DNA of 64,000 bases, taken from positions 33,555,382 to 33,619,381 of the forward strand of contig OY997645.1 of NCBI GenBank assembly GCA_963921795.1, given 5' to 3'. Numbering within the stretch: the stretch's first letter is position 1; the number at the start of each line of letters is the position of its first letter. Below the pieces are notes generated by a model that ran no database searches, was not told the origin of the DNA, and was given only the letters and a program-made list of their open reading frames with translations. Positions 10,064 to 62,216 of the stretch are shown piece after piece. The translations under genes and the position numbers were made by a program. The DNA comes from Nannobrachium achirus. Its lineage: Eukaryota > Chordata > Actinopteri > Myctophiformes > Myctophidae.

Positions 10064-10512
10064 CAGGGACGTGCTGGGCCCCTGATTCAGCCCGGGAAAA
10101 AGAGTTGGAGAGGCCCTCATTGCGCGCTATAGAGAGAGATCTCTCTCCATATAGCGCTGCTGCTACTCAAAGATTTGTGACAAAGTGACAAGCCAGTGGG
10201 CCAATTACATGAGTTATATTTCGTCGTTGTCGGGTGGAAACCTTGTATGTCCTAAACCGTTTGTTTTGTATTTATCATTTAAAAAATGATTTAAACTAGT
10301 GAAAACAGCCGATCTACAAGCAGATAGTAGTAGATCTGCTGTTTTCACTACTTTTGTGCGACAGCCTTGTATGATGAAGCAGGGCTTTGCTTTGCGAAAA
10401 AAATAGACACATTTGAAACTAATTTTGTCCTAATGGCCGGCCTGGACCGGGCCCGGAATGAACCGGCCGTTTGGGAGTTGTCCCGCTTTTCCCAATGGCC
10501 AGCACGTCCCTG
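10064..10512. mobile_element. Non-autonomous hAT element, CAGGGACGTGCTGG family, copy 1
   Basis: Termini CAGGGACGTGCTGG and CCAGCACGTCCCTG are perfect inverted repeats. The 8-bp duplication CATTCAAC flanks both sides (10056-10063 and 10513-10520). Inside, from 10222, lies the left half of a second element family (CGTCGTTGTCGGGTGG), whose right end is missing here. A palindromic module lies at 10297-10350 (TAGTGAAAACAGC... and complement). There is also a subterminal hairpin, GAGAGATCTCTC. No transposase. Confidence 0.92.
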
Positions 10513-10771
10513 CATTCAACTATCATGTGGTCATGAAGTGTTTTGGACAAGCCATGTAGTCATGACAGTCAGTTGTACACTTTAAGGTACACACACATAA
10601 GCACAACACTGCAGGAAAATACCACCTGTCAAATATTGGTGTTGCCTGTGGTCTCCCTGACAGTCATCTGAGGGTTGATTGATGTTTTTGTTCTATAACA
10701 TTGTCCTTGTACAGTAGGTTAAAACCTTAAAAGTTAGTTTTTTTTTCTTAATTAATTAATTAAATAAATTA

Positions 10772-10813
10772 CTACTGTATTTCTCTCTTTAGCTACTGTA
10801 TTTCTCTCTTTAG
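10772..10813. repeat. 21-bp tandem duplication
   Basis: Two perfect head-to-tail copies of CTACTGTATTTCTCTCTTTA plus G. Confidence 0.9.
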
Positions 10814-11951
10814 TTATATCTCCTTCTCCTACCTAGCCCCACTGTTGACAACCGTCAACAGACTTTTCATTTGGTGCTTTGGACATTTCTAATTGTCTAA
10901 TTTGTCTCTAAATTTACTTTGGAATACAGGTACATACCATAATATTATTGCCCTTCTCTTGTTATCATCTGCAATTGGCCTCATCGATATACAGTAATGG
11001 TACATTATTGGCATAATTCTCCTATATTCTAGTAGTTTGCAACCACAGCAACAGAAATGGTGCCACTGCTAGAGTAATAAGAAGAACAATGTAATAAATT
11101 AGTACAAACTATTAAAGTAACTAGCCAGTGAGTGATTATGTTTTTAAAACCTCAGTTGCTGAACTCAAATGTCATCAATAAGTGAACAAAATAGTTAATA
11201 CTATTGATAAAAGTCTAGCAATCAGCTATCCTACATTCCAAAGAGAGTTGCCCCTACATGAAATCCGATTACGGTATAGAAAGGATGTAGTTTCTGGTAT
11301 TGTCAGCAAAATAACTGGTCTTTTACTGTGATAATCTTCTATAATTGCTATTTTGAATCAGTAGTCTGTATTAGGTTTATAGCCTGAAAGTGTCCATTAA
11401 GGCATGTTTACGTCTTCATTAATGCTGTAAAAATGTTTAGCTGCATGTCTTCAGCTTATAGGCTGCTTTTCCAGACTCACCAAGTACAATGAAAATGAGG
11501 CAATGCATAATACACAGCTTGAGCTAAATCTGCCAAGTTCTCATAAGCTTAAGCATTTGCCTAGTATGTCAAATTCTGTAAGACACCACATTTCAGATTT
11601 GCGCAGTCAAAGAAAGAACTGGTTTAATACGTTGGACAAGCCTGATGTCTTGCAGAGTTATCCAAATGTACCGCAGCTATAGACCATATTCACACAGTGG
11701 CCATTTGGCTCTTACTTCATTCTTGGGGGTGTGAATATGGCCAGTTGCTTTAACAGGGTCCTGTGCCACCATATCCAGCTGGGACCACAGCCATCTCAAC
11801 AACGCCTCCCATGGTCACATTCCTCCCCTGTTCTAAGCTTCCACTCTGCTATTTCAATCTCTGCAATCTCTGACATAATTGACATTTTCAGTTAGGCTAA
11901 GATGGAAAAAGTTGGATATATTTTCACACTTATGAGTACAGAGTACCGACC

Positions 11952-12270
11952 TCCTTTTCTCCCCAATTTAGTCGTTATGCCAATTAATTCCTCCCCACAC
12001 ACGTGTGTTGTCACTGCTGTTGTATCCTACTGACTCCCCTGCCAGTGAGGAGCCCCCACCAGGAGGATGTAGACCTCAGTCCTACTCCTCCCACCCAACA
12101 CTCCCTGCTCTTATGACCCTCCCTGCGCGGCTTCCCTCGCCCCAAAATTGTGTTCGTATCAGCACACTCGACAAAGACGGATGCTCCGTGGTGGACTCGA
12201 ACCCGCAGACTCTGCGGTGGTGGACAGGCACTGGTCTTCTTTACCACTGCGCCACCTGGGCGCCTAGGGT
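11952..12270 (-). mobile_element. tRNA-derived SINE (minus strand)
   Basis: Reading the minus strand from about 12270, the head contains an A-box-like TGGCGCAGTGGT and, about 50 nt later, a B box GGGTTCGAGTCC. This is the spacing of a tRNA-derived RNA polymerase III promoter. A longer tRNA-unrelated body follows, ending near 11952 in TTGGGGAGAAAAGGAGG. It is not a functional tRNA, because the cloverleaf is not continued by a tRNA 3' end. The exact 3' boundary is uncertain. Confidence 0.75.
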
Positions 12271-59576: not shown

Positions 59577-59644
59577 TGTGTGTGTGTGTGCGTGTGTGCG
59601 TGCGTGCGTGCGTGCGTGCGTGCGTGCGTGTGTGTGTGTGTGTG
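59577..59644. repeat. (GT)n-(GCGT)n-(GT)n microsatellite
   Basis: GT units, then eight or so GCGT units, then GT units again. Confidence 0.95.
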
Positions 59645-61345
59645 CCGTATTTAGAAGCACTGTTGTTTCAGCAAGACCTGGCGGTCGCTTCTCACCCTTA
59701 GGGCATCTTACTTTGTATGATGTATTTAATGTGCTTTTTGACGTGTTCCAGTGTCCAATTCTATTTCCATTAAATACTACTTTAAATAAAGTTGTCAATA
59801 AAAGTATGTTAAGTGGCAAATACATTAGGATGATGGTCGGCCAATGAGTTGGGGGTCATCTAATAGGTGTGTTTGTGTGCTTTACGTTCACATAAGTGGT
59901 TGGGAGCCAATTAATGTGTTAAATTGGAGCTGGCTGACTGGCAAAACAGTTGAGTTTTTCATACAATAGAAGGGGCATGGGGTGGAAGTTCCAGAGATTC
60001 ACCTCTGGCTGTGCCTCGAGCTCATGAATTGGTGCCACTGCGGCCATGAGCTCCAGGGCTCTGGTAGCTGTGACGATGCACTTTCATTTCAGCCAGCTAG
60101 TAATCCCAGAATGCAATAAAACTGTCTGGGCCCGTGTCTGGCTCCAGTCTGACCAATTTTATTGAGCAAAAAACTGTTTTTTAGCCCCCGATATCACTAG
60201 GGGGAATTTAAGGGTGAAAATAGGTGTTTAGTGCCATTTTCGCTCTTTTGCACAAAACGTTGGATGTCATTAAGCATATTGGGCAAGAATGAGTCACTAA
60301 TTATATACCGTAGGAGAGGGAGTCATAGCAAGGCTTATAATGAGGGACTGCATCCCAACCAAACCGAGACACCATAATTCTGTCACTAGGGACAGGGGTC
60401 AATGCAGTCTGGTCAGCCTATATTTGTGTTGGCTAAAAGACGCTTAAAAAACAGTGTATATCAAAATTGGTTTTGATCTACAGTGTTTGCCGTAGTGATG
60501 TGGAGTCAGCAGTGAAAGTAAATGGACTGTAGACTAATAGTCAAACATAGAGTTGGTAGTCAAAGCTATGTTTACATGACCTCCAAGCGTTCCATGAATA
60601 GGAGCCTCCACTAACATAGTCCTGCTTTCACTTATAAATTCCTATTGAGATTTAGCTTTATGATTGATTAGATTTGGTTTAATGGTTTAATTCCTTCACA
60701 GTCGTCCATATGTTTTTTTAATAGCAATGGTTTATTTGGTGTTCCTTTTACAAACTTGACTTCATGATTTGATTTATTTTGTCGATTTAGGCTATGCCGA
60801 ATATATCAAACCAAGAAATCTATGATAATGATATACTAATGGATTTGATGATGGGTTTATAGATGGGGCGGGGCCATGTCTGTAACTTTGTCAGACATTT
60901 GGTCTGATATGCAGGTGAATTAATACTCTCTTCCCAGCTCATAGTTAGCCTGCTGGATGATTGTGAACCCCAGTGTCTCGAAAATGTAAAGTTTATTGGG
61001 TAAGACAGATTCTCACAGAAGTTACAAGAAGGGTTGTTTTAAATCAATATAGGCCTGCTGTGTTAAAAAACAACAATGGTATATATAGTATAACATCAAA
61101 ATGTATGTATTCATTGTGTTGATTCCATACTCCCCAGTAAACACAGGATGTTGTTAATCTCAGAACAATGGCTCTTGGTAGAGGAGATTTATGAGCTCAT
61201 GCCAAACTGTCAAACAAACAAAACAGACAAGGTGCAAAAAAAGGGTCAATCAAGATGTGGAAATAGTAGGGAAATAGAATCACTTGCCATCGTCTGACAA
61301 ATGCTGATTCAGTCAACAAACAAGTCAGAGAAGGGGAAAGCAAAG

Positions 61346-61387
61346 GCATTTCAAGCAAAGGCATGCACTTGCCTTTGCTTGAAATGC
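61346..61387. repeat. Perfect hairpin, 18-bp stem, 6-nt loop
   Basis: GCATTTCAAGCAAAGGCA pairs perfectly with TGCCTTTGCTTGAAATGC around TGCACT. The left arm is preceded by a partial repeat of itself (AAGCAAAGGC). No flanking mobile-element ends seen. Confidence 0.85.
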
Positions 61388-61791
61388 TTCATGATTGGCA
61401 GTGTTTGAATGGCTGAGTATTGATCTGACATCATCATGGCACCTGCATTGCTCCTGCTGAGGTAAAAGCTAATAGGACAGAATGTCTCTCTATATAGACT
61501 GAATTGTCATTGTGCTGATAAATGTATTAACATCGGCAGGCTTGTGGTGCAACTTGTTTTAGGAATGCATCGGCTGAGCAATCATTAAACACACATCATG
61601 CACGCACGCACGCACGCACACACAGGCAAGGTGCATAGGCCTACTTACTGCATGCTGGGCCAATTTAGGGCTAATTTTAGTTTCATTATGACCTGATCAA
61701 TAACGCTAATGATGTGAACTGGAGTGGAGCTCAGACAGGATGACACAGCACTGTTTCTTTGACTCTTTAACCCATCATGTGAATATGTGGT

Positions 61792-62216
61792 CAGGGGCGT
61801 CACACCAAATTCTGGGCCCTGGGTACAGGATTCACTGCGGGCCCCCCATGAATCTTAACTATTGAAAAATACTTTTGAAAAATCTTGAAAATGCGTGCAA
61901 GAAACATATGTCAAGGACCCCCAAGATGATCTGTATTTGGCCACGGACCCCCATCTCAAAATATTTAGTTCCAGGGACCCCCCAGAAGCAAAATTTGAGT
62001 TAGAAATGTTCGCTTAAAAAATACATATATTCAAAGATTTTCCAACATTTTCAAAAATAGCAGATCTACAAGCTCGCAGCGCGGCACTCGGTGCCGCGCT
62101 GTGAGCTTGTATATCTGCTATTTTTCAATAGCTAAAGTATAAAATAATTAAGGCCCCTCCACCACCTTGGGCCCTAGTAACTCAGTCCCACTTTCCTACC
62201 CCTTGTGACGCCCCTG
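61792..62216. mobile_element. Non-autonomous hAT element, CAGGGGCGTCACA family, copy 3 (one hairpin lost)
   Basis: Perfect ends CAGGGGCGTCACA / TGTGACGCCCCTG with the perfect 8-bp duplication TATGTGGT at 61784-61791 and 62217-62224. The second hairpin module is intact (62053-62125). The first site reads GAAAAAT-ACTTTT-GAAAAAT at 61864-61883, as if the hairpin had been deleted leaving both flanking repeats. Confidence 0.95.
62053..62125. repeat. Palindromic hairpin module, intact copy
   Basis: Almost identical to the modules at 23117 and 41662 (tip GCGCGGCACTCGGTGCCGCGC). The three therefore share a recent common source or are kept alike by conversion. Confidence 0.88.

Follow-up and report, generated by a model that had tools for sequence, protein, structure and literature searches.

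The closest precedent for the sequences analysed here is provided by the CMITE families of Acropora corals, described in PMC2872659 as sharing an internal region of ~75 bp that is better conserved between families than the terminal repeats. According to the same account, this region was suggested to have a role in transposition, a new composite element arose through nested insertion, TTAA duplications occur in all the families and the copy number in A. millepora was put at ~1,600. Two other systems are comparable in part. The Angel MITEs of zebrafish are reported as high-copy elements with long inverted repeats folding into a stable stem, for which compensatory changes were reported in two copies located in lncRNAs (PMC3636048). 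The repetitive hairpin-forming elements of sponge mitochondria are presented as short, dispersed, non-coding palindromes of high copy number for the size of the genome (PMC2800124).

The locus considered below is a stretch of 64,000 nucleotides from Nannobrachium achirus (the window). Compared by description, its repeated core differs from the CMITE region in being a long covarying palindrome, found in ~350,000 copies and in hAT-like, TTAA and TA hosts. Angel, as described, is one family with a stem made of its own inverted repeats, whereas here a separate internal hairpin is common to unrelated families; and the sponge elements lie free in intergenic mtDNA, whereas this hairpin is carried along by the nuclear MITEs that contain it. 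None of the papers listed by literature searches describes this hairpin; short strings of it occur in 32 papers with unrelated titles.

The hairpin core and its hosts

A preliminary description of the window had claimed that one palindromic module recurs in at least six miniature transposon families. With ≤3 mismatches allowed, the arm AAATAGCAGATCTACAAGC is matched 30 times in the window against an expectation of 0.02, and none of 100 shuffles reached 30. Whole-genome counts, a search which that description had proposed, enlarge the claim: 351,999 forward and 351,640 reverse matches were obtained with ≤2 mismatches (2 + 2 for the reversed-pattern control), i.e. ~350,000 per orientation. Strict hairpins were present in 13 of 20 stretches of 10 kb placed arbitrarily (two being half N), and their total of 50 extrapolates to ~415,000, so that the genome contains roughly 0.35–0.42 million hairpins.

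The intact core is 69 bp long and consists of an outer arm, AAATAGC[A/C]GATCTACAAGC, and a variable GC-rich palindromic tip. Exactly 69 bp were found in 32 of the 71 strict hairpins, the remainder measuring 36–81 bp; shortened tips are common, yet still palindromic. Pairing of the stem extends 5–12 bp into host-specific flanks, and its predicted folding is strong (as low as −65 kcal/mol among window copies). Copies are also present in introns of a nectin-3-like gene.

Seventeen two-armed sites had been announced. Twelve of them pair under a strict rule (both arms with ≤4 mismatches), namely 10297, 22852, 23117, 31169, 32256, 34996, 35411, 40133, 41239, 41662, 47128 and 62053; the other five (17938, 19289, 29031, 36591 and 52010) are damaged rather than clean, and 17 hairpins pair when one arm is allowed ≤7 mismatches. 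Three of six supposed one-armed remnants (14253, 23712 and 34515) are among the ≤3-mismatch arm matches, while those at 15067, 30653 and 38258 are weak. The statement that the module lies only in repeat-like DNA holds in this sample with one exception (34524), since one or more further sampled copies align across 16 of the 17 hairpins in the window. The elements of the window are as follows (window coordinates; all unstranded).

10064..10512, hAT-like MITE with CAGGGACGTGCT ends and 8-bp duplication CATTCAAC; nested TA-type MITE from ~10221; hairpin 10303-10344
17817..18225, hAT-like MITE with CAGTGGTTCTCAAC ends and 8-bp duplication GTCTAGTG; damaged hairpin ~17945-17996
19301..19373, damaged hairpin in an E-type element, with a 20-bp tandem repeat in place of one arm
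22778..23270, hAT-like composite MITE with CAGGGGCGTCAC ends and 8-bp duplication AGTACACC; two inverted hairpins, 22854-22922 and 23119-23187
28929..29162, free-standing TA-type MITE with TCGTCGTTGTCGGG ends; damaged hairpin ~29031-29080
31079..31267, TTAA-type MITE (TTAA + CCACTTGAACC) within a hAT-like MITE (CAGGGGTCTTCA); hairpin 31174-31225, 42 bp from one end
32006..32549, hAT-like MITE with CAGGGACRTGCT ends and 8-bp duplication CCATCCAG; nested TA-type MITE 32180-32431; hairpin 32262-32333
35001..35047, shortened hairpin in A-type MITE sequence
35317..35502, TTAA-type MITE with CCACTTGAACC ends; hairpin 35411-35460, 42 bp from one end
36448..36703, hAT-like MITE with CACTGTTTCCCA/CAATGGTTCCCA ends and 8-bp duplication CTCTACAT; degenerate hairpin 36593-36637
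39923..40330, hAT-like MITE with TAGGGCTGTCAC ends and duplication CGTGTAAC/CGTGTGAC; hairpin 40138-40194
41180..41778, TTAA-type MITE with TTAACCCATTTAGG ends; two inverted hairpins, 41241-41309 and 41664-41732
47046..47611, composite in which a hAT-like outer part (47535-47600) adjoins a TTAA-type MITE end (47449-47514); hairpin 47140-47191
52011..52086, damaged hairpin with one perfect arm
61792..62216, hAT-like composite MITE with CAGGGGCGTCAC ends and 8-bp duplication TATGTGGT; hairpin 62055-62123; second hairpin deleted near 61866

Hosts with recognised ends fall into three target types carrying the same core. The hAT-like hosts, with CAG/TAG-type terminal inverted repeats beside an 8-bp target duplication (7–8 of the 8 bp duplicated), have nine end sequences representing about seven types (two pairs being similar). 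Hosts of the piggyBac-like/TTAA type, with a TTAA duplication and CCY-type terminal inverted repeats, form two end families, TTAA + CCACTTGAACC and TTAA + CCCATTTAGG. The single TA family, a candidate for the Tc1/mariner-like group, has TCGTCGTTGTCGGG ends, preceded by TA in most cases and by TT, AA, GA or CA in some. All six host ends named in the preliminary description were recovered and further ones were found. A single module is shared by over six MITE families whose ends are unrelated, and its internal position differs among them. As in the CMITEs, an internal region is conserved in families that differ in their terminal repeats, but TTAA duplication is not common to all of them, given the 8-bp hAT-like and TA hosts.

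Nesting of hairpin MITEs and change of carrier

Several of the hosts thought to be unrelated are nested composites: hAT MITEs that contain hairpin MITEs of the TTAA or TA type, some of the latter with eroded ends. The TA-type MITE is found both nested (32180-32431 in the hAT element 32006-32549) and free-standing (28929-29162). A TTAA-type end lies within hAT sequence at L021 8281-8350 and at window 47449-47514, with 78–80% match to free-standing TTAA copies, and the TTAA element L016 6248-6420 sits in a hAT element at 6145-6583. Host switching by nesting is thus visible in nested compositions and eroded ends. Nested ends were not found for the C, D, F, G, H and I carriers, so that capture is not demonstrated for these.

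The order of events would be as follows. A TTAA- or TA-type hairpin MITE would insert into a hAT-like MITE, lose its own ends and then be amplified by the transposase of its new host; at least part of the carrier changes may have occurred in this way.

Covariation of the stem

The two halves of the hairpin have changed together. In a comparison of 8 families, each represented by one full-length copy, 22 of 48 pairs were changed on both sides (12.3 in shuffles, 0/500; at most 11 in slid structures), corresponding to 36 cells against 17.7 in shuffles and at most 17 in slid structures. A 12-sequence set gave 25/48 pairs and 50 cells (shuffles 15.2 and 28.3; 0/500). Pair 12-88, which lies in host-specific sequence, is formed in 8/8 families with three pair types. 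Eight of the nine double changes between family consensuses are identical on both arms (shuffled mean 2.2; 13/10,000 reach 8), and L010 5933-6184, a divergent relative of the TA family, shows by eye four paired differences in a hairpin located at the corresponding place. This joint change suggests that the folded shape matters to the elements. The earlier proposal of a structure selected within MITEs is borne out to this extent, the evidence of constraint being the covariation of stem pairs between families.

Selection at the level of individual copies, which seemed likely at first, is not supported by singleton counts. The early comparison had chosen copies through their arms and was biased. 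Copies were anchored by their flanks in eight sets, of which the five that do not overlap give 66/1803 singletons in arms and 370/7566 in flanks; in one set, A2, arms have no fewer singletons than flanks (0.044 versus 0.033). Individual copies in the sample thus decay about as fast as their own flanks, and therefore constraint acts on source lineages. Shared variants are scarcer in arms (53/1803) than in flanks (536/7566), a shortage that could come from exchange between families instead of selection. At the family level, one-sided changes across 22 flank groups outnumber double ones (45 versus 14), most of the former being arm position 8 or A-family position 12.

Origin of the shared hairpin and its significance

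We give about even chances to an explanation in which one ancestral hairpin cassette, residing in miniature transposons of several transposase classes, was handed from one MITE family to another, in part through nested capture, and has been kept paired in the elements that amplify. The cassette apparently has no movement of its own and would be amplified by the transposases of its carriers. Amplifying lineages would keep the stem paired while its sequence and the lower-stem flanks drift, and single copies would decay freely once inserted, as they do in the sample. Since the stem stays paired while its sequence drifts, the fold (DNA hairpin or cruciform, or RNA) probably helps elements to amplify or persist.

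Pairing could also be maintained passively, without benefit to the element, if hairpin-templated copying (template switching or cruciform repair) equalises the arms and extends the palindrome into the flanks. Such repair could mimic part of the covariation, and its possible traces include the frequently shortened but palindromic tips, the 14 nt of one flank copied inverted to the other side of the hairpin at window 47140-47191, and L005 1501, flanked on both sides by ~66–69 nt of the E-type left flank in inverted form. However, a mismatch at arm position 8 (A versus C-type), which copying would tend to erase, is kept between pair-changed positions in 6/8 family representatives, 8/12 sequences and 22/71 strict hairpins. 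Private mutations, moreover, are mostly one-sided (70), and only 2 of the 25 double ones are identical (20 of the 25 come from unoriented A-family copies). We regard such passive copying as unlikely. Descent of all hosts from a single MITE that already held the hairpin, with ends and flanks diverged past recognition, is less probable still. It would account for the position of the hairpin in both TTAA families, where a distance of 41–42 bp to the end is seen in four E copies and on both sides of L001, although other A2 copies have longer ends. Seven of 55 family pairs fall below 0.05 in flank comparisons (2.75 expected), with weak similarity for E-K (p 0.008), H-I (p 0.002) and C-G (p 0.012) before correction for 55 pairs. 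Flank homology is nevertheless weak or absent for most family pairs, giving no clear support to the single-element ancestry that the preliminary description had named as its refutation; identity between families is 42–50% in flanks against 80–92% in arms (five families, copies chosen through arms), three different target-duplication classes (TA as a candidate) are present and nested compositions are visible.

A hairpin that is itself mobile, inserting into MITEs or short palindromes, as the preliminary description had envisaged, would agree with the same core being found in many hosts and with the short host-specific palindromes around it, which resemble possible targets. At window 47452 the second hairpin of the composite is cleanly missing and a single TTCAA is kept, while elsewhere TTCAA flanks the core on both sides; this site is ambiguous, and no second clean empty site was found in the ~288-kb local sample. 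The hairpin occupies one fixed position within each family seen, direct flank repeats are at chance level over 22 groups with no target duplication around the core, and in the TA-type relatives B and L010 its place is shared, with lower stems that have changed. Flank pairs, direct repeats and a joined-flank query for one host thus gave self-mobility no local support, and we hold it to be improbable. A role at the RNA level, in which the transcribed stem (a precursor like those of microRNAs or siRNAs, or one of another kind) would be of benefit to the elements or have been co-opted by the host, is marginally more improbable again: the long, strongly folding stem, its covariation and the intronic copies in the nectin-3-like gene would fit, but no Rfam family reached its gathering score in the window, the below-threshold matches being to unrelated hairpin families. 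Two further candidates were rejected: a viral origin (0 exact 19-mer matches among viral contigs) and a hairpin acting as a recombination hub between families (no clear mixed-flank copies by eye).

If a captured cassette kept paired in amplifying elements is the right explanation, internal modules may pass between transposon families through nesting and end erosion, making unrelated families seem related, or the reverse. More tentatively, the hairpin might be a trans-recognised 'amplification cassette', whose stem with its retained A/C mismatch is bound or processed by one host or transposon factor, raising the amplification of the carrier MITE; MITEs of three transposase classes would then have been independently selected to keep the same cassette, which now numbers hundreds of thousands in a single vertebrate genome. 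As to why a few MITE families attain huge copy numbers, a covarying structural module shared across transposase classes would be a natural experiment on whether hairpin gain preceded amplification.

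Abundance and surroundings of the hairpin

The recurrence of the hairpin across the window, claimed in the preliminary description, was borne out: its 19-base arm has 30 matches there at ≤3 mismatches (0.02 expected). Genome-wide (1.66 Gb; C1-C24 are chromosome-sized), 351,999 forward and 351,640 reverse matches were found at ≤2 mismatches, versus 2 + 2 for the reversed-pattern control. Since each intact hairpin contributes one match per strand, the genome total is ~350,000 hairpins; extrapolation from 50 strict ones (both arms ≤4 mismatches) in 200 kb sampled, 10 kb of it N, gives ~415,000. 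The sequence examined, ~288 kb in all (the window, 20 sampled stretches and 8 hit loci), contains 71 strict hairpins, 32 of them with an intact 69-bp core, and 93 under a laxer rule (one arm allowed ≤7). No Rfam family reached threshold in the window, where many hairpins are located between exons of a nectin-3-like gene.

Other features of the window
27535-27981, 35604-36269 and 42244-42942, + strand: nectin-3-like exons, V-set and C2-set Ig domains
50481-51941, - strand: 487-codon open frame of a LINE-like fragment, reverse transcriptase domain RVT_1 (E 3.5e-36)
17688-17832: 28-bp tandem array (5.2 copies) of hAT-like end CAGTGGTTCTCAACCTGTGGGTCTAGTG, adjoining a complete element

Nectin-3 is the best solved match of the exons; their third reading frame, which matches nothing in Pfam, terminates in REWYV, a sequence resembling a nectin tail.

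Carrier elements and the place of the hairpin

An automatic scan recovered complete ends and their target duplications for 25 of the 93 hairpins (some rows being chance pairs), and further complete ends were identified by hand. The hAT-like ends, with 7-8 of 8 bases duplicated, are CAGGGACGTGCT, CAGGGGCGTCAC, CAGTGGTTCTCA, TAGGGCTGTCAC, CAGGGGTCTTCA, CAGGCACGTGCA, TAGAGATGGG, TAGGGATGGGAC and CAGTGTTGTTTT, about seven types because two pairs look alike. The TTAA carriers are of two types (TTAA+CCACTTGAACC and TTAA+CCCATTTAGG), and TCGTCGTTGTCGGG-type ends mostly have TA in front. The six host ends named in the preliminary description are all among those identified. Superfamily names are assigned from ends and duplications, such kinds generally denoting hAT, piggyBac-like and Tc1-like elements.

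In the copies found, both flanks adjoin the hairpin within each family, the gap length differing through tip deletions. Shortened or hairpin-less sites are ragged deletions, except at window 47452, where the hairpin is cleanly absent. In both TTAA families the hairpin may occupy a subterminal-like position, 41-42 bp in from the end of the element (L-numbers denote other stretches of this genome, in local coordinates):

L001: both ends
window 31079-31267 and 35317-35502
L002 1411-1589
L016 6248-6420

Several hosts are composite elements:

window 32006-32549: hAT-like MITE enclosing a TA-type MITE (32180-32431)
L016 6145-6583: contains the TTAA-type element at 6248-6420

The enclosed TA-type MITE is also free-standing (window 28929-29162). 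At L021 8198-8350 and window 47449-47600, a hAT-like end is joined to the end of a TTAA-type MITE through one and the same junction, and free-standing relatives of this TTAA-type end are 78-80% identical; other copies, at window 22778-23270 and L009 from 4610 on, are without the TTAA end and retain the hairpin and hAT end. Flanks of family K (hAT-like ends) are weakly similar to those of family E (TTAA ends). No nested ends were seen for the C, D, F, G, H and I carriers in the ~288 kb.

The closest case found, going by the available part of its description, is that of the coral CMITEs, which have a conserved internal region despite different terminal repeats; these are all TTAA elements, whereas the carriers here are also hAT-like and TA-type (PMC2872659). 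Angel (PMC3636048) and mitochondrial hairpin elements (PMC2800124), as far as the available parts of those accounts go, resemble the hairpin only partially.

Pairing, possible arm copying and constraint

Flank complementarity continues 5-12 bp beyond the core, in host-specific sequence. At flank positions 2-10, inverted matching within the 22 flank groups examined was 0.41-0.82 (0.21-0.44 for flanks from different groups), direct repeats being at chance level only. With eight families each represented by a single full-length copy and 48 pairs scored, double changes occurred at 22 pairs (12.3 in shuffles) and in 36 cells (17.7), with a covariation of 0.292 (0.142), each 0/500; further pair types numbered 40 (32.1; 4/500), and slid structures did not exceed 11 pairs or 17 cells. 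A 12-sequence set agreed, further pair types excepted, which were not unusual there (51 vs 46.5, 63/500). These family-level statistics cover 8-22 families from ~288 kb. Eight of nine double changes in family consensuses are identical on both arms (reached by 13 of 10,000 shuffles). In a divergent TA-type relative (L010 5933-6184), the hairpin is at the same place, its lower stem changed yet paired, as judged by eye. At window 19289-19340, a 20-bp tandem repeat made of arm sequence (GGTCAACAAGCTCACAACAA) stands in place of one arm.

Palindrome repair, in which one arm is copied from the other, is a real rival to selection, since template-switch events are present at window 47140 and L005 1501. 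As sole cause, however, it is opposed by a mismatch at arm position 8, which is retained in 6 of 8 family representatives (22 of the 71 strict hairpins have A/C there) and sits between positions changed in pairs. The A family retains its A/C difference at position 12 instead (29/71). The shared mismatch also fits a single origin of the hairpin. Across many families, the otherwise paired stem carries one A/C asymmetry between its arms, mostly at position 8.

Copies were picked through their flanks, so that the choice was not biased by the arms. In five non-overlapping anchor sets, singleton changes arose at similar rates in arms (66/1803) and flanks (370/7566), whereas shared variants were scarcer in arms (53/1803 vs 536/7566); all eight sets run gave 118/2535 vs 598/10643 for singletons and 60/2535 vs 718/10643 for shared variants. 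The set from A2, a TTAA family, showed the opposite tendency, its singleton rate being 0.044 in arms and 0.033 in flanks. Given similar singleton rates and fewer shared arm variants, inserted copies decay freely, and constraint is visible in the amplifying lineages.
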